From NCBI RefSeq assembly GCF_034555375.1, contig NZ_CP140706.1, positions 1,293,001-1,357,000 of the forward strand: DNA of 64,000 nucleotides, read 5' to 3'. Below are positions 41,295 through 56,543 of this stretch, one piece after another; within the stretch, counting starts at the first letter, position 1; every line of letters begins with the position of its first letter. Source of the stretch: Pseudomonas sp. B33.4. GTDB taxonomy: Bacteria; Pseudomonadota; Gammaproteobacteria; Pseudomonadales; Pseudomonadaceae. The notes beneath the pieces were generated by a model that was not told the DNA's origin, did not search any database, and worked only from the letters and a program-made list of their open reading frames with translations. The translations under genes were made by a program, and so were the position numbers.

Positions 41295-41319
41295 TCGCCG
41301 CGTTTGACCACCAGCATTC

Positions 41320-41343
41320 AGCCCACCGCGCGTGGGCTTTTTT
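41320..41343 (+). terminator. Intrinsic terminator-like hairpin between sheath and tube, module 2
   Basis: A 7-bp stem agcccac / gtgggct with a 5-base loop is followed by six T residues. It lies inside the operon, 26 bp after the sheath stop, so read-through must occur for downstream genes. Confidence 0.8.
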
Positions 41344-41361
41344 AATCAAGGGAGTAACACC

Positions 41362-41709: not shown

Positions 41710-42002
41710 GCGGCGCCGTGAAGCTTCAGGTTGCGATCGAAGCTCACGGCGAGCCCCTGACCGAACTCGTCCTGCGCCGTCCGACGGTGCAGGAGGTGCG
41801 AGCGATCAAGGCGTTGCCGTACAAGATCGACAAGAGCGAAGAAGTCAGCCTCGACATGGACGTGGCGGCCAAATACATCGCCGTGTGCGCCGGCATTCCG
41901 CCGTCGTCGGTCAACCAGCTGGATCTGGCTGACCTCAATGCGCTGAGCTGGGCCGTTGCGAGTTTTTTCATGAGTGCGGCGTCGGCGCCATCACCGACCT
42001 GA
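41706..42002 (+). CDS. Module 2: tail assembly chaperone, short form
   Basis: The 98-residue protein (MSGAVKLQVAIEAHGEPLTE..., VLRRPTVQEVRAIKALPYKI) has the phage tail-chaperone (E/gp41-type) pattern including LDLADLNALSWAVASFF. It overlaps the tube gene by 4 bp and carries the slippery T-run at 41963. Confidence 0.85.
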   Translation: MSGAVKLQVAIEAHGEPLTELVLRRPTVQEVRAIKALPYKIDKSEEVSLDMDVAAKYIAVCAGIPPSSVNQLDLADLNALSWAVASFFMSAASAPSPT

Positions 42003-42133
42003 TCGCCGTCGCCTATGACCTGGCCTGGTTCTGGAAGGTTGACCCCGAACAGATGATGGCCAGGCCACTGGATGTGCTCCGCGAATCGCTGGAGCACGCG
42101 CAACGGATCAATGCGATGCAGCAGGTGCAGTGA
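41706..42133 (+). CDS. Module 2: frameshifted tail assembly chaperone
   Basis: A -1 slip on T TTT TTC (41963-41969) continues from CAT at 41969 for 54 codons (HECGVGAITDLIAVAYDLAW..., LEHAQRINAMQQVQ), giving 142 residues. The extension has no start of its own, is protein-like (Trp/Asp-rich DLAWFWKVDPEQMM), and its stop overlaps the tape-measure start as tgatg. This is the second such element in the locus, in an unrelated module. Confidence 0.85.
41963..41969 (+). other. Programmed -1 frameshift site, module 2
   Basis: Heptamer T TTT TTC in proper phase (AGT TTT TTC). After slippage both tRNAs pair with TTT. Confidence 0.85.
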
Positions 42134-43908
42134 TGGCAGACGAAGAGAAAAAAGTGAAAACGCCGGTGCTGATCACGGGCATCGATGAACTGTCGCCCAA
42201 ACTCGGCGCCCTTCAAGCCAAGGTCGAGGGTTTCAAGAAAAATCTCGAACAGGCTGGCCTCGGCAAACTGGACATCAGCGGTCTGTTCAAGGGCGGCAGC
42301 GTGATCACGCCGTTCGTGGAGGGGATCAAATCGGCGGCGGCGTTTCAGGGCAAATTGACTGAAGTCAGCGACACGGCAAAAACCGTCGACCTGCCCGCCA
42401 CACCGAAAGTCGCTGCGCAAAACATGAACGTGTTCAGTGCGTCGATGGAAAAGGTCTCAGCCGCCGTGGACGCGGCACTGGTGCCGGCGGTGGGGGCGTT
42501 GGTGGTCGGGCTGGAACCGATGCTGACCCAAGTCGGCAGCCTGCTCGCCGACAACCCGAAACTGGTCGAAGGCCTAGCGGCGGGGGCGATTGCCTTTTCG
42601 GCGATGCAAACCGCCGTCACCGGTATGACCCAGGTGATGGACGTGATGAGCATGGTGCTCAAGACCAACCCGATCATGCTGATCGCCATGGGTATCGCAG
42701 TGGCGGCCGGATTGATTTATGCCAACTGGACGCCGATCAGCGCTTTCTTCAAAGGCATGTGGGAGGGCGTGAAAAACATCGGTGCGAGTGCGATGGCGAC
42801 GTTGCGCTCGATCCTCGATTGGCGACCGCTGGATGCACTGGCGGCGCTGTGGTCACCGCTCGCGGGATTTTTTTCCGGGATCTGGGGCACGGTCAAAGCG
42901 GTCACCGCGCCAGTGATCGACTTCTTCAAATCGGTGTTCTCGTGGACGCCCGCCGGCATGATCCTGGAAAACTGGGCGCCGTTGACCGGTCTGTTTTCGG
43001 CGATCTGGAACTTGCTCAAGGCCTTGAGTGTGCCGGTGAAGTCGTTTCTCAAAGGACTGTTCGACTGGACACCGTTGGGGATGATCATCAACAACTGGGG
43101 GGCGATCACTGGCTTCTTCGCCTCGATCTGGACGGCGCTGCAACCGGCGGCACAAGCCATCAAGGACTTCTTCGGCACGTTGTTCGACTATTCCCCACTG
43201 GGCATGATCGTCAACAACTGGGGCAGCATCGTCACGTTCTTCGAACCGATCTGGGCCGCACTACAAGCGTCGGCGCAGCAGATCAAAAGCTTCTTCCAGG
43301 GCCTGTTCGAATGGTCGCCGCTGGAACAGATCGCGATGTACTGGCAACCGATCAGCGAAGTGTTTTCGGCGCTGTGGGGCGTGGTGCAAGCGTTGGCCGC
43401 ACCGGTACTCGAGTTTTTGCACAACATGTTCGAATGGACGCCGTTGGGGCAGATCATCAAGAACTGGGGGCCGATCACCGAGTGGTTCGGCGAGTTGTGG
43501 CAAAAGCTGCAAACCGTCATTGCGCCGATCCAAGAGCTGTTCGACGGCGGCTTTGCCGGACTGATCGCCAAGGTCACCGGCAAGGTGGAAACGTTCACCG
43601 AAGCGCAACGCCAGACCAATGCCGAAGGCAAAGGAGAGCTGGCTCCGGCGTTCTTCGGGGCAACGCCGCAAGCAGCGGGCAACGGTGCACTGCAAAGTGG
43701 TTCGTTGCCACAGAGTTCTGGCGCACTGATTCAACAAAGCGCAATCAACAACCGCACGCAGCTCGAAGGCGGCCTGACCGTGCGCTTCGAAAATGCGCCG
43801 GCCGGGTTGCGCACCGATCAACCGCAAACCAATCAACCGGGCCTGGCGCTGTCTTCGCGCATCGGCTATCGCTCGCTGTCGATGGGAGGTTCCAATGAAC
43901 TGGCGTGA
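42133..43908 (+). CDS. Module 2: tape measure protein with 41-residue repeats
   Basis: The 591-residue protein has a helical N-terminal third with a hydrophobic stretch (MLIAMGIAVAAGLIYANW near residue 180). Six complete tandem repeats of exactly 41 residues follow, from 42727 to 43464, with a partial seventh. Each repeat reads about W-x-P-I-x-x-F-F-x-x-I-W ... F-F-x-x-L-F-x-W-T-P-L-G. The C-terminal ~130 residues are polar and non-repetitive. The tape measure fixes tail length, so repeat number may do so. ATG 42133 is preferred over a GTG at 42130. Confidence 0.9.
   Translation: MADEEKKVKTPVLITGIDELSPKLGALQAKVEGFKKNLEQAGLGKLDISGLFKGGSVITPFVEGIKSAAAFQGKLTEVSDTAKTVDLPATPKVAAQNMNVFSASMEKVSAAVDAALVPAVGALVVGLEPMLTQVGSLLADNPKLVEGLAAGAIAFSAMQTAVTGMTQVMDVMSMVLKTNPIMLIAMGIAVAAGLIYANWTPISAFFKGMWEGVKNIGASAMATLRSILDWRPLDALAALWSPLAGFFSGIWGTVKAVTAPVIDFFKSVFSWTPAGMILENWAPLTGLFSAIWNLLKALSVPVKSFLKGLFDWTPLGMIINNWGAITGFFASIWTALQPAAQAIKDFFGTLFDYSPLGMIVNNWGSIVTFFEPIWAALQASAQQIKSFFQGLFEWSPLEQIAMYWQPISEVFSALWGVVQALAAPVLEFLHNMFEWTPLGQIIKNWGPITEWFGELWQKLQTVIAPIQELFDGGFAGLIAKVTGKVETFTEAQRQTNAEGKGELAPAFFGATPQAAGNGALQSGSLPQSSGALIQQSAINNRTQLEGGLTVRFENAPAGLRTDQPQTNQPGLALSSRIGYRSLSMGGSNELA
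42727..43464 (+). repeat. Six tandem 123-bp coding repeats in the tape measure gene
   Basis: Repeat starts fall at 42727, 42850, 42973, 43096, 43219 and 43342, each with a tgg codon; a partial seventh starts at 43465. Unit length is constant although DNA sequences have diverged, so selection holds the 41-residue period. Confidence 0.9.
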
Positions 43909-45130
43909 CCGTTTGTTGCCGGCATCCTTTCGTGGTGTCGGTTTCTGGATCGATCAGGCGAAAACCCCGGTCGGTCGCAAAGGTCAGTTGCACGAGTATC
44001 CGCAACGCGATCTGCCGTATTTCGAAGATCTCGGCCAACAGGCGAGGATTCACGACGTCACCGCATTCATCATCGGCGCCGATTGCCTGGAGCAGCGCGA
44101 CAAGCTGCTCAAGGCACTGGAGGCGGGCAGTGGTGAACTGGTGCATCCGTGGCTGGGGCGACTGCAAGTCAAGGTCGGCGAATGCGACATGACCCACACC
44201 CGCCAGGACGGCGGGTTAGTGACCATTACGCTGAAGTTCTATCCAGACCAACCGTTGCCGTTTCCGACCGCTACCGTCAGCACACAGAAAGTGTTGCTGG
44301 CCAAGGCCGACACGCTTTTGGGGTCTGCGGTGGCACGTTTCGAACAGGCGATGACGCTGATCAAGGCCGCGCGGATCGGCATTGCCAATCTGCGTAACAG
44401 CCTGACCGGCGTTTATGAGGTGATCAAAGAACAGCTCAAGCCGCTGATCGAGCAGTACCGGCAGATCACTGAACTGGTCAAAGCGGTCAAGGAGTTACCC
44501 AAGGAAGTGGCGGCGGAGTTCAAAGGCCTGCTCGGCGATATCAAGGAGCTCAAGGAATTCGCGAAGGAGGGCTACCGTGGCGTGATTGCCGACGTGTCCC
44601 AACAACTCGAAGCAATCCGCAAGGCTGATGCGCCGAAGATCACCACCGGCAAGGACACCAACGCCGCAGCGCAGGCCATGGCCGATCTGGTGCAGGACAC
44701 GATGCTGGTCAAAGTGGCGCAGTGGGTGGCGTCGATGCCAGTGGCGAGCCCCGCCGTGAAGCTGTCGTCGACACCCTCGGTGGCGCATCAGGCGGATCAA
44801 CCGGTGACCCGTCAGGAAGTACCGGTGACCGAAGAAATGAAAGCGCTGCAGAAGGCGGTCGGGGTGGCCATTGACCCGATGCTGGACAAGGCCGATCCCA
44901 AACACCACCAGGCAATCAACGATGTCAAGGAAGCGCTGCTAGCGCATCTCAAGGCAGTGGCGTCATCCGGTGTGCGACAGGTCACCAAATCGTTCCAGGA
45001 AAGCTTGCCGGCGCTGGTTGTGGCCTACAAGCAATTTGCCGATGCCACACGGGTGACGCAAGTGACTCAGAGCAACGCGATGAACCATCCGGGCTTTTCA
45101 CCCAACGACGTGAAAGTGTCCAGGGAGTGA
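43895..45130 (+). CDS. Module 2: DNA circularisation N-terminal-type tail protein (Mu gpN-like)
   Basis: The 411-residue protein begins MNWRDRLLPASFRGVGFWID and HEYPQRDLPYFEDLGQQARI, the N-terminal domain called DNA_circ_N; in Mu-like tails this protein sits at the tube-hub junction. The middle is a long helical region (LKPLIEQYRQITELVKAVKE). The ATG at 43895 has a gggagg signal and overlaps the tape-measure gene by 14 bp. The name circularisation is historical; a structural role fits this context. Confidence 0.9.
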   Translation: MNWRDRLLPASFRGVGFWIDQAKTPVGRKGQLHEYPQRDLPYFEDLGQQARIHDVTAFIIGADCLEQRDKLLKALEAGSGELVHPWLGRLQVKVGECDMTHTRQDGGLVTITLKFYPDQPLPFPTATVSTQKVLLAKADTLLGSAVARFEQAMTLIKAARIGIANLRNSLTGVYEVIKEQLKPLIEQYRQITELVKAVKELPKEVAAEFKGLLGDIKELKEFAKEGYRGVIADVSQQLEAIRKADAPKITTGKDTNAAAQAMADLVQDTMLVKVAQWVASMPVASPAVKLSSTPSVAHQADQPVTRQEVPVTEEMKALQKAVGVAIDPMLDKADPKHHQAINDVKEALLAHLKAVASSGVRQVTKSFQESLPALVVAYKQFADATRVTQVTQSNAMNHPGFSPNDVKVSRE

Positions 45131-45133
45131 GCC

Positions 45134-46180
45134 ATGAGCGAGATGGATAACCGCGTCACGTTGACCGTCAACAACATGGAATACGGCGGCTGGAAAAGCG
45201 TGGAGATCACGGCCGATCTGGAGCGCCAGTTCCGCACGTTCAAACTTGACATCACCTGGCAGTGGCCGGGGCAGACGGTGGACCAGCGGATCAAGCCGGG
45301 TGACCCCTGCGAAGTGAAAATCGGCCAGGATCTGGTGCTCACCGGCTATGTGTTCAAGGCGCCGATCAGCTATGACGGACGCCAGATCAGCCTGAGCATC
45401 GAGGGCAGTTCCAAGACCCAGGATCTGGTCGATTGCGCCGCCAGAAACCAGCCGAACCAGTGGCAGGAGCAACCGCTGCTGAGCATCGTTCAGGCGCTGG
45501 CGATGGAGTACGGGCTGATGGTGGTCAATGAAATTCCCGAGACTGCACGGCTGACCAAGCACACGATCGTGCCGGGTGAAACCGTGTTCCAGTCGATCGA
45601 CCGTTTGCTCTCGTTGCTGCGGGTGTTTTCCACCGATGACGAGCAGGGCCGACTGGTGCTGGCCAAACCCGGCAGCGGTGGTCGGGCCAGCGATGCGCTG
45701 GAACTGGGCAAGAATATCCTGTCGGCCAATGCCCCCATGGATCAGAGTCAGGTGTTCTCCGAATACCGGGTGATCGGCCAGCAGAAAGGTTCGGACAAGA
45801 AGAGCGGGGCGGCGGTCAGCGAGGTTGAATCCAGCGCGACCGATCTGAGCTTCAAACGTCGACGCACCACCATCATCAACGAGGGCACCGCGCTGACGTT
45901 CGAACTGGCCCAGCAACGCGCCCAGTGGGAGTGCGCCACCCGTATGGGGCGGGCGCAGACCACCACGTATCAGGTGCAGGGCTGGCGCCAGGCCAACGGT
46001 GATCTTTGGCGGCACAACACGCTGGTCAAAGTCACGGATCCGGTGCTGGGGTTTGATGGCGACATGCTGATTTCCAAGGTCACGTATTCGTTGTCGGCAC
46101 AGGGTTCGGTGACCACACTGCAAGTGGCGCCGCCGCATACCTTCGATGCCAATCCCAGCCCCCCGAAAAAAACCACATAG
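45134..46180 (+). CDS. Module 2: baseplate hub protein (Mu gpP-like)
   Basis: The 348-residue protein matches Mu P/T4 gp27-like hubs: NRVTLTVNNMEYGGWKSVEI, DPCEVKIGQDLVLTGYVFKA, SLSIEGSSKTQDLVDCAARN, VPGETVFQSIDRLLSLLRVF, RWECATR-like QWECATRMGRAQTTTYQVQG. It starts 3 bp after the previous stop. A long REP hairpin follows immediately. Confidence 0.93.
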   Translation: MSEMDNRVTLTVNNMEYGGWKSVEITADLERQFRTFKLDITWQWPGQTVDQRIKPGDPCEVKIGQDLVLTGYVFKAPISYDGRQISLSIEGSSKTQDLVDCAARNQPNQWQEQPLLSIVQALAMEYGLMVVNEIPETARLTKHTIVPGETVFQSIDRLLSLLRVFSTDDEQGRLVLAKPGSGGRASDALELGKNILSANAPMDQSQVFSEYRVIGQQKGSDKKSGAAVSEVESSATDLSFKRRRTTIINEGTALTFELAQQRAQWECATRMGRAQTTTYQVQGWRQANGDLWRHNTLVKVTDPVLGFDGDMLISKVTYSLSAQGSVTTLQVAPPHTFDANPSPPKKTT

Positions 46181-46186
46181 GCCCTG

Positions 46187-46263
46187 AAAAGATCGCAGCC
46201 TTCGGCAGCTCCTACAGGTGTACGCCGATCTCATGTAGGAGCTGCCGAAGGCTGCGATCTTTT
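46187..46263. repeat. REP-like long hairpin between hub and spike genes of module 2
   Basis: Two perfectly complementary 30-bp arms (46187-46216, 46234-46263; core gatcgcagccttcggcagct) with a 17-base loop lie 6 bp after the hub stop. The sequence is unlike the other REP elements of the window and belongs to a different dispersed intergenic repeat family. Confidence 0.92.
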
Positions 46264-46294
46264 GACGTCGGCCCGTTTCTTACAGGAACCAAGC

Positions 46295-46804
46295 ATGAGC
46301 CTACTGACACGCCTGCTGGCGCGCGGCACTGTCGTGCTCGCCAATTCGGCATCCAAGCTGCAATCGCTGCAAATGCGCCTCACCGCTGGCGAAGTGAACG
46401 ACGACATGGAGCACTTTGAACCTTACGGTTTCACCAGCCACCCGCTGGCCGGCGCTGAAGGTGTCGTCACGTTCATCGGCGGCGACCGTTCCCACGCCAT
46501 CGCCCTGGTCATTGCCGATCGCCGTTATCGCCTGCAATCGCTGGCATCGGGCGAAGTGGCGATCTACACCGACGAAGGCGACAAAATTCACTTCAAGCGC
46601 GGGCGGATCATCGACATTGAAACCGCCACGCTGAACATCCGCGCCAGCAGCGCGGTGAACTTCGACACGCCGGTGATCAATCAGACCGGGAAAATCGTTT
46701 CCACCGGCGACCAGTTGGCCGGCGGCATCAGCCAGATCAAACACGTGCACGTCGGCGTACAGGCCGGCAGCGGCCAGACCGGCGCGCCGGCAGGAGGCAA
46801 GTGA
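46295..46804 (+). CDS. Module 2: baseplate spike (Mu gp45-like) with HxH tip
   Basis: The 169-residue protein shows the Mu gp45 pattern: LLTRLLARGTVVLANSASKL, YGFTSHPLAGAEGVVTFIGG, HAIALVIADRRYRLQSLASG, a beta-helical part (IDIETATLNIRASSAVNFDT) and a tip KHVHVG, whose HxH can bind iron at the point of the spike. It overlaps the next gene by one base. The start is ATG 46295. Confidence 0.93.
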   Translation: MSLLTRLLARGTVVLANSASKLQSLQMRLTAGEVNDDMEHFEPYGFTSHPLAGAEGVVTFIGGDRSHAIALVIADRRYRLQSLASGEVAIYTDEGDKIHFKRGRIIDIETATLNIRASSAVNFDTPVINQTGKIVSTGDQLAGGISQIKHVHVGVQAGSGQTGAPAGGK

Positions 46805-47202
46805 TGCTGATCAGCCAAAATCTCCACGCCGCACTGACCCGCTCCGTACTGATCAGCCTGTTCACCTGGCGCCGCGCCGCCGATGACGACGCCCTCGACG
46901 ACGACGAACGTTTCGGCTGGTGGGGCGATACGTTTCCCAGCGTTGCCGACGACCGCATCGGCTCGCGGCTATGGCTGCTGCGCCGGGTGAAATTGACCCG
47001 GCAAACGCAGATGGACGCCGAGTTTTATGCCCGCGAAGCCCTTCAATGGCTGATCGACGACGGCCACTGCAGCGCCATCGACATCATCAGCGAACGCCTC
47101 GACGCCCAGCGCCTGAACCTGCGCACGGTCCTGACTCTGGCCGACGGCGAACGTCTGGACATCAACCCCGATAACAGTTGGCAGGTGATCTATGCCGTTT
47201 GA
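46804..47202 (+). CDS. Module 2: baseplate protein (Mu gp46-like)
   Basis: The 132-residue protein belongs to the phage GP46 family: FGWWGDTFPSVADDRIGSRL then WLLRRVKLTRQT, AREALQWLIDDGHCSAIDII. It is a wedge component equivalent to gp25. It is flanked by one-base and 11-bp overlaps with spike and gp47 genes. Confidence 0.93.
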   Translation: MLISQNLHAALTRSVLISLFTWRRAADDDALDDDERFGWWGDTFPSVADDRIGSRLWLLRRVKLTRQTQMDAEFYAREALQWLIDDGHCSAIDIISERLDAQRLNLRTVLTLADGERLDINPDNSWQVIYAV

Positions 47203-48235
47203 AACCCCTTCGCTGCCGGTGCTGATCAAGCGCACCCAAAGCGACCTGGCCGGCGATTCGCTGCGCCAGTCCGATGCGCAAGTGCTGGCCCGTACCCTCG
47301 GTGGCGCGGCTTATGGTCTGTACGGTTATCTCGACTGGATTGCCGAGCAGATTCTGCCGGACAAGGCCGATGAGTCGACCCTGGAACGCATTGCCGCTCT
47401 GCGTCTGAACCAACCGCGCAAACCCGCGCAAGTGGCCACCGGCAGCGTCAGTTTTACCGCCACTGCCGGCGCGGTGCTCGACGCCAATACGCTGCTGCAG
47501 ACCAATGACGGCCGCACCTACAAAGTCACCGCCGCGCGCACCACCGTCAATGGCAGCAACACCACCACGATCGCCGCGCTGGATGCCGGCAGTCTGGGCA
47601 ATGCCGACGCCGGGCTGGCGCTGACCCCGGTGCAGCCGATTGCCGGTGTGATCGGCAACAGTTTTGTGGTGCTGGCGCCGGGACTCAGCGGCGGTGTGGC
47701 GCGGGAAAGTCTGGAGTCGCTGCGTTCGCGGGTGATCCGTTCCTACCGCGTGATTCCCCATGGTGGCTCGGCCAGTGACTACGAAACCTGGGCGCTGGAA
47801 GTGCCCGGCGTAACGCGCGCCTGGTGCCGTGGTGGCTTGCTCGGGCCGGGCACCGTCGGCGTGTACATCATGCGTGACGACGATCCGCAACCGGTGCCGA
47901 ACGATGAACAACTGGCCGAGGTTCAGGCTTATATCGAACCCTTGCGTCCGGTGACGGCTGAAGTGCATGTGCGTCCACCGATTCAAGTGCCTGTGACCTA
48001 TCGCCTGAAGTTGACCCCAGATACCAGCGCGGTGCGCGCGGCGGTCGAAACCCAACTGCGCGACTTGCATAACCGCGAGGCCGACCTCGGCGAAGATCTG
48101 TTGATCAGCCATATCCGCGAAGCGATCAGTAGCGCCGCAGGTGAAACCGACCACGTGCTGACAGCTCCCGTGGCCAACGTCACGGCCAACGACAGCGAAC
48201 TGCTGACCTTCGGAGGTTGTGTATGGGGGGCATAA
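47192..48235 (+). CDS. Module 2: baseplate J-like protein (Mu gp47-like)
   Basis: The 347-residue protein is a baseplate J family member: LYGYLDWIAEQILPDKADES, LERIAALRLNQPRKPAQVAT, SLRSRVIRSYRVIPHGGSAS then DYETWALEVPGVTRAWC, VHVRPPIQVPVTYRLKLTPD. It builds the baseplate wedge. It overlaps gp48 by 13 bp. Confidence 0.95.
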   Translation: MPFETPSLPVLIKRTQSDLAGDSLRQSDAQVLARTLGGAAYGLYGYLDWIAEQILPDKADESTLERIAALRLNQPRKPAQVATGSVSFTATAGAVLDANTLLQTNDGRTYKVTAARTTVNGSNTTTIAALDAGSLGNADAGLALTPVQPIAGVIGNSFVVLAPGLSGGVARESLESLRSRVIRSYRVIPHGGSASDYETWALEVPGVTRAWCRGGLLGPGTVGVYIMRDDDPQPVPNDEQLAEVQAYIEPLRPVTAEVHVRPPIQVPVTYRLKLTPDTSAVRAAVETQLRDLHNREADLGEDLLISHIREAISSAAGETDHVLTAPVANVTANDSELLTFGGCVWGA

Positions 48236-48822
48236 GAACCGTCGCACAATATCAGGCGCAACTGCGCGCCTTGCTGCCCAGTGGCCCGGCGTGGGACCCG
48301 GAGCGCGTGCCGGAACTGGAGGAAGTGCTGCAAGGCGTCGCCGTCGAACTGGCACGCCTCGATGCGCGCGCCGCCGACCTGCTCAACGAGATGGACCCGG
48401 CCGGCGTCAGCGAACTGGTGCCGGACTGGGAGCGGGTGATGAACCTGCCCGACCCATGCCTGGGTGCGACGCCACTGTTCGACGACCGCCGGCTCGCCGT
48501 ACGCCGACGCTTGCTCGCGGTCGGCAGCCAAGCGGTCGGCTACTACCTCGAAATCGCCAAAAGCCAGGGCTATCCCAACGCCACCATCACCGAACTCGAA
48601 GCCCCGCGCATGGGCCGTTCGCGTTTCGGCTCGGCGCACTGGGGCACGTGGGAAGCGCAGTTCATGTGGACCCTCAACACCGGCGGGCGCTTGTTGCTCG
48701 GTCGGCGTTTCGGCGCGAGCTACTGGGGCGAGCGCTTCGGCGTCAATCCGGGGTCGGCGCTGGAATGCCTGATTCACCGCAGTGCGCCGGCGCATACCAA
48801 GGTGCACATCAATTATGACTAG
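48223..48822 (+). CDS. Module 2: baseplate-fibre connector (Mu gp48/DUF2313-like)
   Basis: The 199-residue protein (MGGIRTVAQYQAQLRALLPS, GPAWDPERVPELEEVLQGVA, LVPDWERVMNLPDPCLGATP, CLIHRSAPAHTKVHINYD) matches the YmfQ/gp48 family, which links wedge and fibre. ATG 48223 follows ggaggtt; a TTG at 48217 is also open. It ends 14 bp before the first fibre gene. Confidence 0.92.
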   Translation: MGGIRTVAQYQAQLRALLPSGPAWDPERVPELEEVLQGVAVELARLDARAADLLNEMDPAGVSELVPDWERVMNLPDPCLGATPLFDDRRLAVRRRLLAVGSQAVGYYLEIAKSQGYPNATITELEAPRMGRSRFGSAHWGTWEAQFMWTLNTGGRLLLGRRFGASYWGERFGVNPGSALECLIHRSAPAHTKVHINYD

Positions 48823-48836
48823 GGAGGAATGACGGG

Positions 48837-49568
48837 ATGGATTATCCGAAGAGCGTGCCCAGTTCCGGGCTGGTGAATGGCAAATTTGTTGATGAAAACC
48901 CATTGATGGGAACGCCGGGTTCATTGATTCCGGCGCGATGGGGCAACAGCGTTACCGACGAAGTAATCAACGTGATCACTGCCGCCGGACTAGTCCCCGA
49001 CGAGGGCGACACTACGCAACTCAAAGCGGCGATTTCGGCAATTGTCGAAAAGAACAAAAGTGATTCTCTGGCAAGCAAGGATGAGGCCGAGGCGGGTACC
49101 AGCAGCAGCCGTCTGATGACTCCGCAGCGGGTGTTCCAGGCGATCGAAAAGAAAGTGGTGCAAGCCACTGAAACGGTTTTTGGCTGGGCGCGGATCGCGA
49201 CTCAAGCCCAGGTCAATGCGGGGACGGATGACACCACTTTCGTCACGCCGAAAAAACTCTGGTTTGGTGTTTCCTACAGCATTGGCGCGAACGGCTATAT
49301 CGCTTTTCCGAGCTGGTTGGGGGGCTTCATGATTCAGTGGGTCATGATCACCGTCGCTACAGATAAAACCTATGTTGCAAAACCCTGGCCGGTGGCTTTC
49401 AAGACCCAGTGCGCCGCTACCTGGGCAAGTTACTCGCACAGCGGCAACGCACCCTTTTTCGATATCGTCACTCCACCCTTGGTGACCTACTTTGATCCCA
49501 GCCAGGTTCAAGTCTTGAGTAATTCCGGTGGCTCCGGTTTTGTCACTGTCCTGGGGGTGGGGAACTGA
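48837..49568 (+). CDS. Module 2: tail fibre A
   Basis: The 243-residue fibre starts with the shared anchor (MDYPKSVPSSGLVNGKFVDE, GTPGSLIPARWGNSVTDEVI), about residues 1-70. A stem with the common phage-fibre pattern KDEAEAGTSSSRLMTPQRVF and NAGTDDTTFVTPKKLW follows. The C-terminal knob (SWLGGFMIQWVMITVATDKT) resembles gp53-type fibre ends. Its chaperone gene follows by 1 bp. It is nearest to the baseplate genes and so may be the best expressed of the five fibres. Confidence 0.88.
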   Translation: MDYPKSVPSSGLVNGKFVDENPLMGTPGSLIPARWGNSVTDEVINVITAAGLVPDEGDTTQLKAAISAIVEKNKSDSLASKDEAEAGTSSSRLMTPQRVFQAIEKKVVQATETVFGWARIATQAQVNAGTDDTTFVTPKKLWFGVSYSIGANGYIAFPSWLGGFMIQWVMITVATDKTYVAKPWPVAFKTQCAATWASYSHSGNAPFFDIVTPPLVTYFDPSQVQVLSNSGGSGFVTVLGVGN

Positions 49569-49569
49569 C

Positions 49570-49995
49570 ATGAAACGTTTCTATAGCCGAACCACCGGCA
49601 ACACCTATTTGTCGGGTTATCACACCAGCCTTCCGGACGATGCCGTTGAAATCGACGAGGCGCGTTATGAGTCGGTCATCGCAAATCCTGTAGCGGGTAC
49701 CGAGCGATCCCATGACGAGCAAGGTCTGCCGATCCTGGTCGAGATGACAGCTCTTTCAGATGAGCAAACTTCGGCCGAAGCCAAGGCGTGGCGCGATCAG
49801 GAATTCAACCGGGTTGCCTGGTTGCGCGATCGCCACCGTGACGAAGTGGAGCTAATGAAGGCCACCACGCTGTCCGACGCTGAATATCTGACGCTGCTGA
49901 CTTACCTGCAGGCGCTGCGCAAGTGGCCCCAGGCGAAGAAATTTCCCGCCAAACGCTCTCGACCGAAAAAGCCTGCCTGGATGACTGCCGAGTGA
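49570..49995 (+). CDS. Module 2: fibre chaperone A
   Basis: The 141-residue protein (MKRFYSRTTGNTYLSGYHTS) has the helical C-terminal chaperone pattern WRDQEFNRVAWLRDRHRDEV, TTLSDAEYLTLLTYLQALRK and RPKKPAWM. It should fold fibre A. C and D chaperones share this C-terminal type. Confidence 0.85.
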   Translation: MKRFYSRTTGNTYLSGYHTSLPDDAVEIDEARYESVIANPVAGTERSHDEQGLPILVEMTALSDEQTSAEAKAWRDQEFNRVAWLRDRHRDEVELMKATTLSDAEYLTLLTYLQALRKWPQAKKFPAKRSRPKKPAWMTAE

Positions 49996-50052
49996 CTGGA
50001 TGCTGCTTTGTCGGCATCGCCTATCAATATTCCAGGTATAGGAAAAACAATT

Positions 50053-51132
50053 ATGGATTATCCAAAAAGTGTCCCCAGCGTTGGCTTGATCGATGGTCGT
50101 TTCGTCGATGAAAACCCGGTGGCGGGTACGCCGGGATCGTTGATTCCGGCGGTGTGGGGCAACAGTGTGACTCAGGAAATTCTGAGTGTGATTACAGGGG
50201 GTGGGTTGGTGGCCTCAGAGGCGGACACCACTCAGTTGTTCAAGGCGATTCAGTCAATTGTCGGCAACGCCAGCCCGATGCGTTCGGTGATTACTCGGGT
50301 TGGAGCGTCCAGGTCATTGACCACCGATGAGTTGGGCTTGGTTCTGATCGATGCCGGGGCCAGCGCATTGACCGTCAGTTTGCCTCCAGCCAATACCAGC
50401 CTTGGGGTGTGTGACGTCATTATGCGGCGCGTCGATAACAGCGGTAACCGCTTGGTCGTGAGAAGTGCAAGCGGCGATGCGATCAAGTTTCACACCCACC
50501 TGAATGCTTCGGGTTATCCGTTTCTCGTATTGATGGGAGCCGGTGACTGGTGGCACTTGCGCAGTGACACAGCGGGTAATTGGTGGCCGATCGGTCGTCT
50601 GGACGGTTCGTCACTCGGGTACGTAGCCTTCGAGACCACTCTGGCTGTGCTGCCCGGTGGCTATGCCGCATTGAATGGTTCCGTACTGAATCGCTCGGAA
50701 TGGCCGTGGCTCTGGGACCACGCGCAGCAGTCGGGCATGTTGCGTTCCGAGGCGGATCGTGGCGGTGCGTGGACGCCTGGAGACGGCGCCACGACTTTTC
50801 GCCTGCCAGAAGCCCGTGGTGAATTCTTGCGCGTCCTGGCCGAAGGCGGTTTGGTCGATACCGGTCGTGCGGCGGGATCCTGGCAAAAAGGCTCGTTGGT
50901 TCAGGGGGACAACGGCGTCGCCGACAATATTTTGTTTGCGACAAACATCATTTCCCAGAAAGCCCAGCTGGGTTTCGATATGGGCAACTACGCCGATTAC
51001 GCCGGCGCCACCGTCAAATACATCACACCTGCTGCGCCGATTACGCCAATCGCCGATTCAGAACTGCTGAACCACGGCGGTATCACGCGTCCTCGAAATA
51101 TTGCTTATCCGGGTCGAATCAAACTTGTCTGA
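50053..51132 (+). CDS. Module 2: tail fibre B (tail-collar type)
   Basis: The 359-residue fibre has the shared anchor (MDYPKSVPSVGLIDGRFVDE, GTPGSLIPAVWGNSVTQEIL). A beta-rich stem follows (TDELGLVLIDAGASALTVSL), then a phage tail-collar domain (ALNGSVLNRSEWPWLWDHAQ near residue 213, GATTFRLPEARGEFLRVLAE near 250) and the end GGITRPRNIAYPGRIKLV. The collar-type tip differs from A, C, D and E. ATG 50053 is chosen because it aligns with the other anchors. Confidence 0.9.
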   Translation: MDYPKSVPSVGLIDGRFVDENPVAGTPGSLIPAVWGNSVTQEILSVITGGGLVASEADTTQLFKAIQSIVGNASPMRSVITRVGASRSLTTDELGLVLIDAGASALTVSLPPANTSLGVCDVIMRRVDNSGNRLVVRSASGDAIKFHTHLNASGYPFLVLMGAGDWWHLRSDTAGNWWPIGRLDGSSLGYVAFETTLAVLPGGYAALNGSVLNRSEWPWLWDHAQQSGMLRSEADRGGAWTPGDGATTFRLPEARGEFLRVLAEGGLVDTGRAAGSWQKGSLVQGDNGVADNILFATNIISQKAQLGFDMGNYADYAGATVKYITPAAPITPIADSELLNHGGITRPRNIAYPGRIKLV

Positions 51133-51139
51133 GGTGCTC

Positions 51140-51706
51140 ATGTTTAATTATCTGATTGATCATCTGGGCTGTTTGACCGGCCCTGTCGAGTTTGACGTCA
51201 CCCCCGGTCTTGGTGTTCAGCTGCCGAGTAATGCCGTTCAACTTTCATTCGAGCTGCCATCGCCCGAAAGCGGGCGAGTATGGGCACTGGTTAACAATGT
51301 TCCTCGAGAGCTGACAGACCGGCGCGGTGTGGTTTACCGCAAAAACGATGGAGTCAGGCAAATATGGACCGAACTGGGAGAGTTGCCAGACACCCTGACC
51401 GCCCAGTCGTGGCCAGGGGAGTTCCATGTCTGGCGCGACAACGCCTGGGTACAGGATGAGCAGACTCGCTTGGCGAGCGTAAGACAGCAATGCCTCAATC
51501 AGCGTGACGCAGTGCTACGCGATGCCGTACTGCGCATCGCACCCCTGCAATACGCCGAAGACATTGGCGATGCCAGCCATGACGAACAACTGCTGCTGAT
51601 CGAGTGGAAGCTCTACAGCGTCGAGCTGAACCGCATCGAAAAACAGGCCGGTTTCCCCGATGAAATTACCTGGCCGGTCGCACCCGGCGCAACCGTAGCC
51701 AACTGA
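51140..51706 (+). CDS. Module 2: fibre chaperone B
   Basis: The 188-residue protein is the longest chaperone of the array: MFNYLIDHLGCLTGPVEFDV, LPDTLTAQSWPGEFHVWRDN, and a C-terminus LLLIEWKLYSVELNRIEKQA then GFPDEITWPVAP. This C-terminal type is shared with the three orphan proteins at 25032-26529 and not with chaperones A, C and D. Confidence 0.82.
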   Translation: MFNYLIDHLGCLTGPVEFDVTPGLGVQLPSNAVQLSFELPSPESGRVWALVNNVPRELTDRRGVVYRKNDGVRQIWTELGELPDTLTAQSWPGEFHVWRDNAWVQDEQTRLASVRQQCLNQRDAVLRDAVLRIAPLQYAEDIGDASHDEQLLLIEWKLYSVELNRIEKQAGFPDEITWPVAPGATVAN

Positions 51707-51728
51707 TTTCAGCACAGGAAGCAGTGCA

Positions 51729-52655
51729 ATGGATTATCCAAAAACTATCCCCGGCGTGGGACTGGTCAACGACGGCTTCGTCGATGAAAACCCGCTCGCC
51801 GGGACACCGGGATCATTGATTCCCGCGGCGTGGGGCAACAGCGTCACGCAAGAAATTCTCAACGCGATCAAGGCCGCCGGATTGATACCGGATGAAGCCA
51901 GAACCGATCAGCTGGCCAGCGCAATCGGTGCACTGGTCGACTTCAATAAACTAAAAAATACCCCAACCACGTTGGTCGGTTATCGCATCACCGATGCGGT
52001 GGGGCGGTTGCTGGCAGTCAGGCAGATCGAGACGGTCGGGATCACGGTTTACAAGCCCAACCCGAGGGCCAAACGGATTCGTGTGCGGCTGGTCGGGGCG
52101 GGTGGATCTGGCGGTGGTTGTGCAACTGTCGCCGCCGGTAATCTGCGTCTCGGTGGCGGCGGTGGGTCGGGGGCCTATGCGGAGAGTCTTTATGACGTGA
52201 CGCCCCAGATGCTTGCCGGTGTGCCCGTTTCTTTGGGGGCGGGTGGACCTGCCAGCACTACGATGGGGCTGGCAGGCGGTGGGGCTTCCTTCGGCTCCTA
52301 CATGAGCGCTGCAGGAGGCGCCGGTGCACAGATCCTGAACATCGATACGACAACCTCTTCCTCAGGGTACGTTCAGGGTGGGACTGGAGGACAAGACGCC
52401 GTGGGCGGCAACCTTGCCAATGCACGGGGTCACACCGGTGGCTACGCGATGTTCAACGGCAATTGGGGAATGCTCTCCGGAGGCGGAGCGGCGAGCCCGT
52501 TCGACGGTGGCGGCCCGTACAGGGGCGTACACAATCCTGGTTTCGCTGGCGTCCGAGGCTCGGGAGGCAGTGGCTCTTGTTCGTCCAATCCTTCGAGTTC
52601 ATTCGTCAGTGGCGCCGGCGGCAACGCCTTCTGTGAAATCTGGGAGTACGAGTAA
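51729..52655 (+). CDS. Module 2: tail fibre C (glycine-rich tip)
   Basis: The 308-residue fibre has the anchor MDYPKTIPGVGLVNDGFVDE, a short stem and, from residue ~105, a glycine-rich domain (RIRVRLVGAGGSGGG, LRLGGGGGSGAYAESLYDVT, SCSSNPSSSFVSGAGGNAFC) ending CEIWEYE. Such glycine-rich domains in phage adhesins can form stacked polyglycine-II sheets that expose receptor-binding loops. Fibre E has the same tip class with different loops. The stop overlaps its chaperone as taatg. Confidence 0.87.
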   Translation: MDYPKTIPGVGLVNDGFVDENPLAGTPGSLIPAAWGNSVTQEILNAIKAAGLIPDEARTDQLASAIGALVDFNKLKNTPTTLVGYRITDAVGRLLAVRQIETVGITVYKPNPRAKRIRVRLVGAGGSGGGCATVAAGNLRLGGGGGSGAYAESLYDVTPQMLAGVPVSLGAGGPASTTMGLAGGGASFGSYMSAAGGAGAQILNIDTTTSSSGYVQGGTGGQDAVGGNLANARGHTGGYAMFNGNWGMLSGGGAASPFDGGGPYRGVHNPGFAGVRGSGGSGSCSSNPSSSFVSGAGGNAFCEIWEYE

Positions 52656-53122
52656 TGGCCCGTTATGCACGACTGGAAAACGGTATCGCGATCGAACTGA
52701 TCGATACCGGTGAGTACGCAATCACTCAACTGTATGCACCGGCTTTTGTCGAGGCGATGGTGCAGGTGCCGGAGGGCATGCACCTTGAGATCGGCGCACC
52801 CATCAGTGAACTGCGCCATGAGGTCACACCGTTGCCGGACATGGGCAAGTCTGTGGTCATTCCTGAAACGGTGGTCGAGGAGCAAGAGCCTTTGGCAGCA
52901 GCGCGCACCTGGCGTCAGTCCAGTCTGTCGGCCACCGAATGGCGGGTGACGCGGCATCGCGACGAGCAGGCGCTGGGGCGTGGGACGACGCTCAAGGCCG
53001 CGCAGTATCTGGAGTTGCTGGAATACCGCCAGGCGCTGCGCGACTGGCCTGATTCAAGCCAGTTTCCTTCGGCCGTTTCCCGGCCTTCGGCCCCCGAGTG
53101 GCTCGCCGCTGATGTTGGCTAG
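52655..53122 (+). CDS. Module 2: fibre chaperone C
   Basis: The 155-residue protein (MARYARLENGIAIELIDTGE) has the C-terminal chaperone pattern WRQSSLSATEWRVTRHRDEQ, GTTLKAAQYLELLEYRQALR then DWPDSSQFP, RPSAPEWLA, closely matching chaperone D. It overlaps fibre C by one base. Confidence 0.85.
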   Translation: MARYARLENGIAIELIDTGEYAITQLYAPAFVEAMVQVPEGMHLEIGAPISELRHEVTPLPDMGKSVVIPETVVEEQEPLAAARTWRQSSLSATEWRVTRHRDEQALGRGTTLKAAQYLELLEYRQALRDWPDSSQFPSAVSRPSAPEWLAADVG

Positions 53123-53163
53123 CGCCATCAAGTTGCATGTGTTTTCCGAACAGGAGATGAGTA

Positions 53164-54060
53164 ATGGATTATCCAAAAAGTGTTCCCAGTGCGGGTCTGG
53201 TGGACGGCAAGTTTGTCGATGAGGATCCGGTAGCGGGTAAACCGGGATCGTTGATTCCGGCGAGTTGGGGGAACGGCGTCACGCAGGAGTTACTGAAGGT
53301 CATCCAGACTGCCGGTCTTACGCCTGCAGAGTCCGCCAATGATCAACTGTTGGGGGCTTTACGCAGTAACAGGTTATTTGTGACTGCGCCGCAATTCGAC
53401 AGTGGCAAATCGGTTGCAACGACTGAATTCGTAACCCGAACCGGTTTGCAGTTTTCCGGTTTCGCGTCCTATGGAGTGAGCACAGTTCTGAGCGCTGCCA
53501 ATATCGGTGGAGTCGCCAGCTTTGCGAGTAACTCGCCGATCACGGCGACGTTGCCTTCAGTCAACGGAATTGCCCACGCCAGTACCCTTCACGTGATCAA
53601 TGCGGGCACCGGTATTTTAACGATCAGTCCGGCAGCCAATGAACAGATCGAAACCTGTAATGGCACATTCGGACCGCTGAAGCTGGATCTTGGTGATTCC
53701 GCTTATCTGATCAAGCTGAGCAATCAGTGGCGTTTATATGGGGGATCGGTCAGCGATAGGTATGCCACAGCGCATTCCGGTGTCGTAGGCAACGTCGGTT
53801 ATCAACGCTATCCCAGCGGTAACATCGACCAGTGGGATGTTGGCACCACGGATGCCAAAGGCGAAGTTAATGTCAGTTTTCCTATCTCTTTTCCCAACGC
53901 GTTTTCATCGATCGTGGCCATCCACTCGGGGGGCGACGGCGCGATGGTCATCATGCTCTCCACCTCTGCGACGAAACAGGGCTGCCGGCTGAAGGTCCGT
54001 AGCTACACCGGTGAAGTCAGTGCGAACTGGGGTGTTTTTTTTCTTGCAAAGGGCTACTGA
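53164..54060 (+). CDS. Module 2: tail fibre D
   Basis: The 298-residue fibre has the anchor MDYPKSVPSAGLVDGKFVDE, GKPGSLIPASWGNGVTQELL. A middle domain follows (ANIGGVASFASNSPITATLP, INAGTGILTISPAANEQIET), then a C-terminal knob (GNVGYQRYPSGNIDQWDVGT, PISFPNAFSSIVAIHSGGDG, FFLAKGY) of the gp53-like type. The chaperone gene starts on the base after the stop. Confidence 0.88.
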   Translation: MDYPKSVPSAGLVDGKFVDEDPVAGKPGSLIPASWGNGVTQELLKVIQTAGLTPAESANDQLLGALRSNRLFVTAPQFDSGKSVATTEFVTRTGLQFSGFASYGVSTVLSAANIGGVASFASNSPITATLPSVNGIAHASTLHVINAGTGILTISPAANEQIETCNGTFGPLKLDLGDSAYLIKLSNQWRLYGGSVSDRYATAHSGVVGNVGYQRYPSGNIDQWDVGTTDAKGEVNVSFPISFPNAFSSIVAIHSGGDGAMVIMLSTSATKQGCRLKVRSYTGEVSANWGVFFLAKGY

Positions 54061-54507
54061 ATGAATCCGTTCAATGTTTTGTTTAGCGCCAGTACCCGGG
54101 GCGCCTATGTGCCGGGTATCAACTCAACGGATATTCCCGACGACGTTATCGAAATTCCTCAGGGTTACTGGATCTCGCTGCTGCAGCAGATGGCGGTCAC
54201 CCCGAAAGTGATTGGCGTGCGTGCCGATAACGGCTATCCGGTTCTGGTCGATCCACCACCGCCTTCACCGGATGAAGCTGCTGACATCGAGCGCTCGTGG
54301 CGTACGGCGCAACTCGCCGCCACCGACGGTCTGGTGGCCCGTGATCGTGATGAGCTGGAGGACGGCGGCGGTACCACATTGACCACCGGGCAATACGCCG
54401 AATTGCAAACCTATCGCCGTGAATTGCGGGACTGGCCGCAGGGTTCTTTTTTTCCGTTCAGCGAGCATCGGCCGATTGCGCCGAAGTGGTTGGCTGCTGC
54501 GCTGTAA
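54061..54507 (+). CDS. Module 2: fibre chaperone D
   Basis: The 148-residue protein (MNPFNVLFSASTRGAYVPGI, NSTDIPDDVIEIPQGYWISL) carries the chaperone C-terminus WRTAQLAATDGLVARDRDEL, GTTLTTGQYAELQTYRRELR then DWPQGSFFPF, RPIAPKWLAAAL. Its N-terminal part resembles chaperone A (opening FYSRTTGNTYLSGYH...PDDAVEI), while its C-terminal part is nearer to C. Confidence 0.85.
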   Translation: MNPFNVLFSASTRGAYVPGINSTDIPDDVIEIPQGYWISLLQQMAVTPKVIGVRADNGYPVLVDPPPPSPDEAADIERSWRTAQLAATDGLVARDRDELEDGGGTTLTTGQYAELQTYRRELRDWPQGSFFPFSEHRPIAPKWLAAAL

Positions 54508-54525
54508 GTCATCAGGGAAGTTGAA

Positions 54526-55686
54526 ATGGACTATCCAAAAAGCGTTCCCAGTGTTGGGCTGGTGAATGGCAAATTTGTCAATGAAGACGTCGTCGCGGGA
54601 TTGCCCGGATCGTTGATCCCGGCGACCTGGGGCAACAGCGTTACCGATGAATTATTGAACGTCCTCAAATCCGCCGGCCTTGAGCCGAGCGAAGCCGATG
54701 CAACCCAGTTGTTGCAAGCGGTGAAAAAACTCAGTCAGGCAGGTGAAGACAAACATGCCGCTGACATCGGCGCCGCCAATCTCTACATGGCTAATTATGT
54801 GCCTGCCGTCACCGCATTGAAGGACGGCTTGGCGCTGCGCTTTACTGCCGGTAATGCCAATACCGGGGCGAGTACGTTTGCACCGAACGGGTTGATGCCC
54901 AAGCCGATGGTCAGTCTTGCAGCGAGTGCATTGCGCCCTGCAGAGATTGTCGGCGGTAGTGTGTGTTCGGTGGTGTACAGCGCAGCACTGGATAGTTGGG
55001 TGCTGGTGTATGCGAGTGGTGGCAATGCTGCAAGTGGTCGGCTCCTGGGGATCAAGACGTTTACCGCATCCGGCAACTATGTGCCGTCAGTGGGAATGAA
55101 GAACGTATTGGTCACCATCGTCGGCGGAGGTGGTGGCAGCTCGGGAATCGGTGCGACGAACTCCACCCAGGTTTCCCTTACAGGCGGTGGCGCTTCCGGT
55201 AGCTACGCACAAGCCTGGTTATCATCTACCGCGATCGGGCAGAGCCAAATCATTACAGTGGGGGCCGGCGGCGCGGCGGGGGTTGTCGGCACAGGCGGGG
55301 GAAGTGGCGGAACAAGTTCGCTGGGTTCATTGGTTTCGGCCACTGGCGGTGGCGGGTCTCCCTGGAATTCTCCGCTCACGCTTCCTGGATTCGGCTTGTA
55401 TGTGGGTGGTTTTCCCAGCCAAACCTCAAGTGGCGGCAACATTGTCAATTCGGCAGGTGCGGCCGGCAACCCTGGGATGTGCCTCACCGGATCAACACTT
55501 GCCGGGCATGGCGCAAACTCACCACTTGGCAGTGGTGGTTATGCGAGCAGCGTTGCATTGAGTGTGGCTGCGCCTGGTTCCGGTTATGGCTCAGGCGCTG
55601 GCGGGATCGCTAACACAACCAATCAGCCTGGTAGATCGGGCGCAGCAGGCGCGTCCGGCGCCGTGATCATCTTCGAGTACGCCTGA
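54526..55686 (+). CDS. Module 2: tail fibre E (glycine-rich tip)
   Basis: The 386-residue fibre is the longest of the array. It has the anchor MDYPKSVPSVGLVNGKFVNE, a stem domain (AVTALKDGLALRFTAGNANT, LAASALRPAEIVGGSVCSVV) and a glycine-rich tip from residue ~175 (VLVTIVGGGGGSSGIGA, VGAGGAAGVVGTGGGSGGTS, GSGYGSGAGGIANTT) ending GAVIIFEYA. It shares tip class with fibre C. Its stop overlaps the next gene as tgatg. Confidence 0.88.
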   Translation: MDYPKSVPSVGLVNGKFVNEDVVAGLPGSLIPATWGNSVTDELLNVLKSAGLEPSEADATQLLQAVKKLSQAGEDKHAADIGAANLYMANYVPAVTALKDGLALRFTAGNANTGASTFAPNGLMPKPMVSLAASALRPAEIVGGSVCSVVYSAALDSWVLVYASGGNAASGRLLGIKTFTASGNYVPSVGMKNVLVTIVGGGGGSSGIGATNSTQVSLTGGGASGSYAQAWLSSTAIGQSQIITVGAGGAAGVVGTGGGSGGTSSLGSLVSATGGGGSPWNSPLTLPGFGLYVGGFPSQTSSGGNIVNSAGAAGNPGMCLTGSTLAGHGANSPLGSGGYASSVALSVAAPGSGYGSGAGGIANTTNQPGRSGAAGASGAVIIFEYA

Positions 55687-55940
55687 TGAAAACCTACGCA
55701 CGCATCACCCACAACACCGTGGTCGAACTGTTCTCGACCAACGGAAACATGGCCGAGATGTTTCATCCGGATCTGCTCTGGGTCGACATCACTGAAATCA
55801 CTCCGGCACCGCAAATCGACTGGACTGCCAATTTCGGCACACTCGGTTGGATGTTCACATCCCCCGAAGAACTTGCTCCGGAGAACTCTCTGAAAACTCT
55901 GGCAAGAAAATGGTTCACAGGTGTTGGTCGTCAACCGTGA
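55686..55940 (+). CDS. Module 2: short fibre chaperone E (N-terminal domain only)
   Basis: The 84-residue protein (MKTYARITHNTVVELFSTNG, HPDLLWVDITEI, IDWTANFGTLGWMFTSPEEL) matches the N-terminal half of the orphan proteins at 25032-26529 but stops where their C-terminal helical half would begin. No continuation was found in the other frames, so it is a truncated or naturally short version. It may act with a C-terminal half supplied in trans. Confidence 0.75.
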   Translation: MKTYARITHNTVVELFSTNGNMAEMFHPDLLWVDITEITPAPQIDWTANFGTLGWMFTSPEELAPENSLKTLARKWFTGVGRQP

Positions 55941-55976: not shown

Positions 55977-56543
55977 ATGCAAATAACTGAAAACAACCTT
56001 ATCGACATCATGCCCAACGCCCGCTCCCAAGCGGGCGTTTTTGTTTCTGCACTCAACAGTGCCATGGCTCGGCGGCGTATCGACACGCCTAAACGTATTG
56101 CTGCGTTCCTTGCACAAGTCGGCCATGAGTCGGGGCAGTTGCGCTATGTGCGCGAACTGGGCAACAACCAATACCTGAGCAAATACGACACGGGTACGTT
56201 GGCCTTGCGTTTGGGCAATACACCGGAGGCCGATGGCGACGGGCAAAAATACCGAGGTCGCGGGTTGATTCAGATTACCGGCCGTTCGAATTACCGTCAG
56301 TGCAGCCTCGGTCTGTTCGGCGATGAGCGTCTGCTGTCGTTGCCCGAGTTGCTCGAACAACCGCAATGGGCCGCTGAGTCTGCCGCTTGGTTCTGGGAAC
56401 AGAACGGCTTGAACGAACTGGCCGATCGCGATCAGTTCAACACCATTACCCGTCGCATCAATGGTGGGTTGAACGGCTTGCAGGATCGCCTGGAAATCTG
56501 GGCGCGGGCGAGGGCGGTGCTATGCCAATCCCCTGGCGAGTGA
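55977..56543 (+). CDS. Endolysin (glycoside hydrolase family 19 type)
   Basis: The 188-residue enzyme should cut peptidoglycan to release the tailocins. The catalytic glutamate is in FLAQVGHESGQLRYVREL near residue 57, and the family signature KYRGRGLIQITGRSNYRQ lies near residue 92, followed by WAAESAAWFWEQNGLNELAD. There is no signal peptide, so export depends on the holin at 26671. A gggagg signal precedes the ATG. It overlaps the spanin gene by 22 bp. Confidence 0.92.
   Translation: MQITENNLIDIMPNARSQAGVFVSALNSAMARRRIDTPKRIAAFLAQVGHESGQLRYVRELGNNQYLSKYDTGTLALRLGNTPEADGDGQKYRGRGLIQITGRSNYRQCSLGLFGDERLLSLPELLEQPQWAAESAAWFWEQNGLNELADRDQFNTITRRINGGLNGLQDRLEIWARARAVLCQSPGE

Follow-up and report, generated by a model that had tools for sequence, protein, structure and literature searches.

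Five tail fibre cassettes in fixed positions at a predicted Mu-like R-tailocin locus of Pseudomonas

Positions 48837 to 55940 of the window, by which we mean the whole 64,000-nucleotide (nt) stretch of Pseudomonas sp. B33.4 DNA analysed here, hold five tandem tail fibre genes, each followed by a partner gene (cassettes A to E, Table 1). We found that cassettes of this kind occupy up to six fixed positions in related loci, with one to three alternative families per position, and that they are lost or exchanged but seldom permuted. The window probably encodes an R-tailocin of the Mu-like kind whose five receptor-binding fibres are interchangeable and form an ordered set. Multi-fibre tailocins, with three fibres, have already been published; the fixed-slot arrangement is the apparently undescribed part, and a search of open-licence papers, mostly of titles and abstract openings, brought up no array that we could recognise as ordered or as holding five or six fibres.

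Results

Five fibres share one anchor and carry different tips

The five fibre open reading frames (ORFs) begin with ATG at 48837, 50053, 51729, 53164 and 54526 (the ORF list had put the start of fibre B at a TTG, 50008), and each opens with the anchor of about 70 residues that the original prediction had described. The anchors had been called nearly the same, which is apt for the protein (62-71% identity to that of A, with 31 of 69 positions invariant across the five) and too strong for the DNA, where the other four copies share 66-71% identity with the reference copy and the longest exact run between two anchors is 11-23 nt. The anchor (five copies, 197 nt) is the sole direct-repeat family of at least 30 nt at 46-58 kb, and the genome of this strain, a single contig of 6.6 Mb, holds exactly five anchors, all in the array (E-value (E) 0.001).

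Downstream of the anchor the fibres diverge. Of the tip types first proposed, Gp53-like_C in D and Gly_rich_2 in C and E pass the curated Pfam cut-off, while A (Gp53-like_C, 20.7 versus 24.9 bits) and B (Collar, 23.6 versus 24.0) fall below it; the tip of D also resembles 4mtm (E 0.0018). The PHROG matches of the fibres are mostly phage tail fibre proteins. Structure models of fibres E and C, with mean predicted local distance difference test scores of 45 and 46, were not used.

Partner genes begin right at the ends of their fibre genes, from 1 nt of overlap to 7 nt downstream. A chaperone for every fibre, as originally proposed, is borne out for A to D, whose partners are of the Phage_tail_APC/Caudo_TAP type (D narrowly misses the cut-off, at 26.4 versus 26.6 bits), but not for E, whose partner has 84 amino acids (aa) and no family hit. 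This short form is not a strain-specific truncation, as the partner measures 82-85 aa in all 16 intact copies of its cassette family, window included. A C-terminal tail like LKTLA-KW is common to the partners of family T06, to which cassette E belongs, and to most short partners of family T05; furthermore, T05 partners are chaperones of 128-151 aa in 7 of 19 copies and only 65-93 aa in the other 12, and the short forms may therefore have lost a domain.

All ten cassette genes lie on the + strand. The absence of signals between cassettes holds largely as first stated: we found no promoter-like site in 46000-57700 (shuffled sequences gave 3.3) and no inverted repeat of at least 30 nt within 48837-55940 (shorter ones lay outside the search). 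Terminator-like sites in 46000-57700 show no excess (10 versus 11.7 in shuffles), although one weak + strand site does fall inside the array, at 54424-54441 within the chaperone D gene. No invertase family was found among the ORFs scanned. Given the single orientation, the lack of such inverted repeats and the lack of an invertase among those ORFs, we rejected an invertible fibre switch of the Mu G segment or carotovoricin type.

Four to six cassettes are the norm among the most similar loci

The original prediction regarded a five-fold array as well beyond the usual one or two fibres, and suggested comparing cassette number and order among close relatives. We took the best 80 of the 138 named loci found with the baseplate protein, a set biased toward close relatives. 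The anchor is present in 79 of the 80, and 77 of those are complete to the lysin gene or cinA; the complete loci carry one (22 loci), two (7), three (15), four (15), five (16) or six (2) cassettes, so that 55 have at least two and 33 at least four. When only the 36 complete loci closest to the window are counted (within L009-L046), four to six cassettes are present in 30. The five-fold array is thus not exceptional within its group, and four to six fibres are the norm among the most similar loci.

Across a genus sample of 398 genomes, our own included, the anchor was found at E 1e-20 in 122, with at least two anchors in 62, at least four in 32 and at least five in 19; these are counts per genome, from up to 15 candidates scored in each, and some of the anchors lie outside an array (for example one each in G019 and G002). 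Eight phage records match the anchor of B, and besides EU982300 none showed more than two places. Phages were rejected as the source of the array on these records, EU982300 being itself a tailocin locus with three, and on the five viral contigs without gp48, cinA and recA described below.

Cassettes keep a fixed order

Tip families were defined by single-linkage clustering of 240 of 243 fibres (three were too short), requiring 50% identity across 75% of the length. Within arrays, 323 family pairs followed the majority order and 13 ran against it (1000 shuffles: mean 122, minimum 96). One family, T07, occurs either early or late, and at 60% identity it splits by sequence exactly along slot (8 and 6 copies, T07a and T07b). 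With this split, 332 of 337 pairs are in the majority order and 5 are not, compared with a mean of 118 and a minimum of 99 misordered pairs in 500 shuffles. The slots are 0 (T08/T10), 1 (T02/T07a), 2 (T01), 3 (T04), 4 (T03/T07b/T14) and 5 (T05/T06).

This order, with T13 placed between T04 and T03/T07b/T14, was fixed in advance and then applied to a second collection, 80 contigs from a viral collection, some of which may come from strains of the first set; 75 of these contigs carry tailocin markers. Five of the 80 lack gp48, cinA and recA, and carry one or two anchors. Leaving aside 10 unclassified fibres of 248 and the families T15, T18 and T23, which have no assigned slot, we found 263 of 273 pairs concordant, 7 discordant and 3 tied (two families of one slot), against a mean of 135 and a minimum of 111 discordant pairs after shuffling.

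Slot content turns over while families keep their place

Next we examined slot content on a core tree, a quick tree of 1640 nt upstream of the array in which 31 of 77 inner branches are well supported. For 37 genomes, the fewest changes needed at slots 0 to 5 are 7, 9, 4, 12, 7 and 17, with shuffled-label means of 10.3, 8.5, 3.9, 12.5, 9.5 and 17.6. Slots 0 and 4 retain some tree signal, and slots 1, 2, 3 and 5 behave like shuffled labels, which indicates that content changes freely at several slots with families keeping their place. The 37 arrays show 26 arrangements. Families T04 and T06 co-occur (Fisher p 0.0006 in the 37 genomes, with 45 pairs tried and neither kinship nor multiplicity corrected); linkage of these slots was rejected, the median p from phylogenetically independent pairs being 0.0625.

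One explanation of the order goes beyond descent and same-slot exchange and holds that selection maintains it, position setting the dosage on a long transcript. The contents of slots 1, 3 and 5 change like shuffled labels and yet the families hardly move, and the exact split of T07 by slot points the same way. However, homologous replacement through the flanking cassettes would by itself preserve order, and L070 and L076 keep full-length fibres in a different order; we regard selection on position as doubtful.

Tips are exchanged within slots

We compared 159 anchors. Identity is 0.815 within the same slot and family and 0.669 within the same slot between families; between different slots it is 0.674 within one genome and 0.675 between genomes. 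The low value for the same slot and other family suggests that, between families, a cassette is replaced along with its anchor. Homogenisation among the five anchors was rejected, the within-genome value being no higher than the between-genome one. The original prediction had also seen the anchor repeats as substrates for recombination; this agrees with the tip exchange near the anchor between strains described below, but the five anchors of one array do not appear to serve as substrates for one another. Recent tandem duplication as the origin of the five was likewise rejected, since no tip family is repeated in the window array. Among 57 multi-cassette arrays a repeat occurs in two, and in one of these, L020, the two copies belong to subfamilies that split by slot.

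Restricting the comparison to same-family pairs whose cores are at least 0.90 identical leaves 255; in 37 of them an anchor identity of at least 0.90 goes with a tip identity of at most 0.80, and none shows the reverse contrast (anchor at most 0.80, tip at least 0.90). Within a family, as these sequences indicate, anchors track the local lineage more than tips do. Window B and L011_2, for instance, are 96% alike in the anchor and 56% in the tip, with cores 95% alike, and the B tip is 92% alike in L036_3, where the cores are 86% alike. Fibre B is 62-63% identical to its L009 and L011 counterparts and 92% to that of L036, fibre D 48% to that of L010 and 92% to that of L039, and fibre A 99% to L012_1.

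In junction scans, identity to L012 falls just past the B anchor, at about 50280, and identity to L009, which has the other slot-1 family, falls from the start of the A anchor. For both, it returns at about 55890, in the last ~50 nt of the E partner gene, just before the lysin gene; alternative slot-5 alleles become homologous again at this point, which is where the T06 partners and most short T05 partners have their common tail. The placing of a breakpoint near the anchor end rests on one scanned junction of the within-slot kind (B versus L012). Chaperones cluster in part with their tips: at 40% identity T01, T02, T06 and most of T08 each have their own cluster. Taken together, these comparisons support the exchange of tips within a slot by recombination near the anchor.

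The cassettes are under purifying selection

The median ratio of non-synonymous to synonymous substitution rates (dN/dS) is 0.05-0.14 for tips (ten families) and 0.10-0.34 for chaperones (nine families), in pairs restricted to dS 0.05-1, which drops most tip pairs. Only 3 of the 243 fibre ORFs lie clear of contig ends and still fall short of 200 aa, and L034 carries one anchor fragment. Purifying selection on the tip families argues that the cassettes are not relics. Silent relics, which the original prediction had named as a finding that would overturn it, were accordingly rejected on the low tip ratios and the open frames of the other 240 fibres. The same two observations suggest that all five fibres are most likely made and used.

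A possible division of labour would be that only one or two cassettes are used, such as A, which is nearest the baseplate genes and has the strongest anti-Shine-Dalgarno pairing, with the rest stored for recombination. Pairing energies before the starts are indeed unequal (A -11.7, B -4.2, C -4.3, D -7.4 and E -5.2 kcal/mol), and tips are frequently exchanged. Yet dN/dS is similarly low across tip families, 240 of 243 fibre ORFs reach at least 200 aa or are cut by a contig end, and between-slot exchange, which such a store requires, was not seen in the anchors; we therefore think it quite improbable.

The array lies in a double tailocin locus

A double tailocin locus is flanked by mutS (18406-21156, minus strand) and by cinA, recA and recX. 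Contractile sheath, tube, tape measure and baseplate genes are present as two sets, a P2-like one (to 38877) and a Mu-like one (38951-48822), two sheaths and two tape measures being found in all. The ORFs that we scanned between mutS and cinA, a subset of those present, yielded no capsid, portal, terminase or integrase family. The cassettes are followed by lysis genes, a glycoside hydrolase 19 lysin and an Rz-like protein, and then by CinA, RecA and RecX. At the level of predicted genes this is an R-tailocin, with a contractile tail set, no head genes among the ORFs scanned, its own regulator and lysis genes and the mutS-cinA/recA position; it is also a multi-fibre one, with at least two complete predicted fibre/chaperone pairs on one baseplate module. 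By the baseplate region, its closest named relatives are Pseudomonas sp. CROZ-RG-20F-R04-15, P. crudilactis UCMA 17988, P. fluorescens HKI0874 and PS655.

Table 1. Cassettes and neighbouring features of the tailocin locus (positions in the window)
Feature	Position	Strand	Description
Fibre A, 243 aa	48837..49568	+	anchor + Gp53-like tip, Pfam below cut-off; slot 1, family T07a
Chaperone A, 141 aa	49570..49995	+	Phage_tail_APC
Fibre B, 359 aa	50053..51132	+	anchor + collar-like tip, just under Pfam cut-off; slot 2, family T01
Chaperone B, 188 aa	51140..51706	+	Caudo_TAP
Fibre C, 308 aa	51729..52655	+	anchor + glycine-rich tip; slot 3, family T04
Chaperone C, 155 aa	52655..53122	+	Phage_tail_APC
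Fibre D, 298 aa	53164..54060	+	anchor + Gp53-like tip; slot 4, family T03
Chaperone D, 148 aa	54061..54507	+	Phage_tail_APC just under cut-off, PHROG 188
Fibre E, 386 aa	54526..55686	+	anchor + glycine-rich tip; slot 5, family T06
Short partner of fibre E, 84 aa	55686..55940	+	no family hit
Mu/SfV-like contractile tail and baseplate genes bearing the five fibres (proposed mount)	38951..48822	+	terminator, sheath, tube, tape measure, DNA_circ_N, gpP, gp45, gp46, gp47/J, gp48
Lysin, downstream border of array	55977..56543	+	Glyco_hydro_19
Repressor	23709-24524		S24/HTH-type (helix-turn-helix)
Holin	26671-27009		
Single fibre of P2-like tailocin	30176-31789		

Discussion

How the fibres would be used

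We propose that SOS induction would give one long transcript and, from it, all five fibres, each trimer being folded by its own chaperone and docking via the shared anchor on the same baseplate sites. One producer would then release particles of several specificities; going by P. chlororaphis, these would probably form distinct classes and not mosaics. Killing spectra would change as homologous recombination exchanges sequence within a slot, its breakpoints falling inside or beside the anchor or in flanking cassettes, and such exchange would keep the order without an extra mechanism.

A different outcome is that the five trimers load randomly on the baseplate sites, giving mostly mosaics with reduced avidity per target. 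In favour, the five anchors represent a single module (31 of 69 residues are invariant), and we found no sequence feature that would sort the fibres. However, a review describes three distinct complexes in P. chlororaphis (PMC12090994), and contraction is described as triggered by the binding of multiple fibres (PMC10598620), which means that mosaics might fire poorly. We consider mosaic particles unlikely.

In phages of the CBA120/G7C type, several tailspikes are joined by adaptor domains. The fixed cassette order could similarly reflect an assembly hierarchy in which fibres dock on one another, but one short module forms all five N-termini, no docking domain came up when the five fibres were scanned with Pfam and PHROG, and slots are missing in many relatives, which makes a branched complex highly improbable.

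Several observations weigh against our reading of an ordered set of five interchangeable fibres. The partner of fibre E has no recognised chaperone domain. Part of the contrast between anchor and tip can also arise if tips diverge faster, and at 50% identity some chaperone clusters mix tip families (10 T03 with 5 T07b; 5 T05 with 8 T07a). With their differing anti-Shine-Dalgarno energies, the fibres may be made in very unequal amounts. Slot 2 is missing from just 4 of the 37 genomes, and its turnover consequently says little. The order is broken in L070, L071 (11639-17498: T10 T04 T20 T08) and L076, all outside the 49-row tree branch of the window; the second-collection discordances come from contigs L210 (6; T02 T13 T04 T08 T01) and L180 (1), and in three contigs of that collection two slot-4 families stand side by side. 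Finally, the order pairs are drawn from related genomes, and the viral contigs may include the same strains.

A more elaborate version of the ordered set, in which each position accepts tips of its own families alone, allelic exchange outpaces core divergence, position sets dosage, and a six-slot pool yields defined proportions of single-fibre particles, appears to us a tentative idea and unlikely as a whole. If true, each strain would hold one of the six-slot combinations available in a common pool. The slot structure opens testable questions about assembly with several fibre species, the resistance of a producer to its own tips, and slot content in relation to killing spectra.

Relation to known systems

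The primary study of a multi-fibre R-tailocin, in Pseudomonas chlororaphis, is reportedly that of Dorosky et al. (2018). According to the account in PMC12090994, this tailocin has three fibres assembled in three distinct complexes, and it is also treated in PMC10598620 and PMC12961389. As these sources present it, the likeness to the window extends to several fibre genes in one tailocin, a rhizosphere pseudomonad, two tailocins and a shared lysis cassette, and its several specificities from one producer match what we propose for the window. It has three fibres versus five here and up to six in relatives, and the accounts cited describe neither slot order nor alleles.

In P. protegens CHA0 a pair of R-tailocins is described that lies between mutS and cinA/recA (PMC7815802), and the prophage 01-like elements of P. 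fluorescens share the mutS-cinA locus and the SfV/Mu-like tail (PMC2647930). One of these, Q8r1-96 (EU982300), has three fibre/partner pairs in the order T02-T01-T14, versus five in the window; as far as that source goes, they are annotated as separate tail proteins with no comment on an array. In the carotovoricin loci of Pectobacterium, as described in PMC13195805, tail fibre loci are exchanged between species by homologous recombination and the first half of the fibre gene is conserved, as here; those loci add DNA inversion by an invertase, whereas the window group has a row of up to six parallel cassettes.

The S/U module of phage Mu is similar in its baseplate families gp45-gp48; the anchor weakly resembles Mu fibre S (5yvq_A, E 0.019), and chaperone B the Mu tail fibre assembly protein U (5yvq_B, E 0.0034). 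Mu switches its fibre by DNA inversion, whereas in the window all alternative fibres have the same orientation.

A conserved hairpin in the lysin gene

A terminator-like hairpin lies at 56016-56039 (10 pairs, then TTTGTTTC), within codons 14-21 of the lysin gene. Its core of nine pairs is kept in 73 of 76 lysins, with eight pairs in the other three; pair 7 is C-G in 66, G-C in 7, G-T in 2 and broken in 1, the seven G-C cases being changes on both sides of the stem. The codons AAC, GCC, CGC, CAA, GGC and GTT of the hairpin are invariant or nearly so. Of 167 eight-codon segments, the one starting at codon 14 shows the strongest synonymous conservation, with a second peak near codon 174, at the gene end. 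In the viral collection (80 lysins), nine pairs are found in 77 and eight in one, the motif is missing in two, and 23 of the 77 have no cinA or recA within a 1.5 kb flank. Taken by itself, the window copy does not fold unusually well (z -1.83; 9 of 200 shuffles were as good). We read the hairpin, from this pattern of conservation, as a conserved nucleic-acid element, and it is possibly a putative attenuator that would delay the lysin and time lysis.

Other features of the locus

The fibre and chaperone of the P2-like tailocin lie at 30176-32377, and this chaperone is related to those of T02 cassettes (50% over 117 residues), a hint of exchange between both tailocins of the locus. Three fibre-assembly chaperone genes with no adjacent fibre gene (Caudo_TAP, the third at the cut-off) lie between the repressor and holin genes, at 24975-25433, 25437-25967 and 26101-26529. 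With the second as query, homologues (E <1e-15) were found in 16 of the 32 genomes with at least four anchors, our own included, and in 3 of 8 one-anchor genomes; the matched stretch has stop codons in four genomes. Outside the array, between the gpP and gp45 genes, there is a perfect inverted repeat at 46187-46263, with two 30-nt arms and a 17-nt spacer, which we take to resemble a Pseudomonas repetitive extragenic palindromic (REP) pair.

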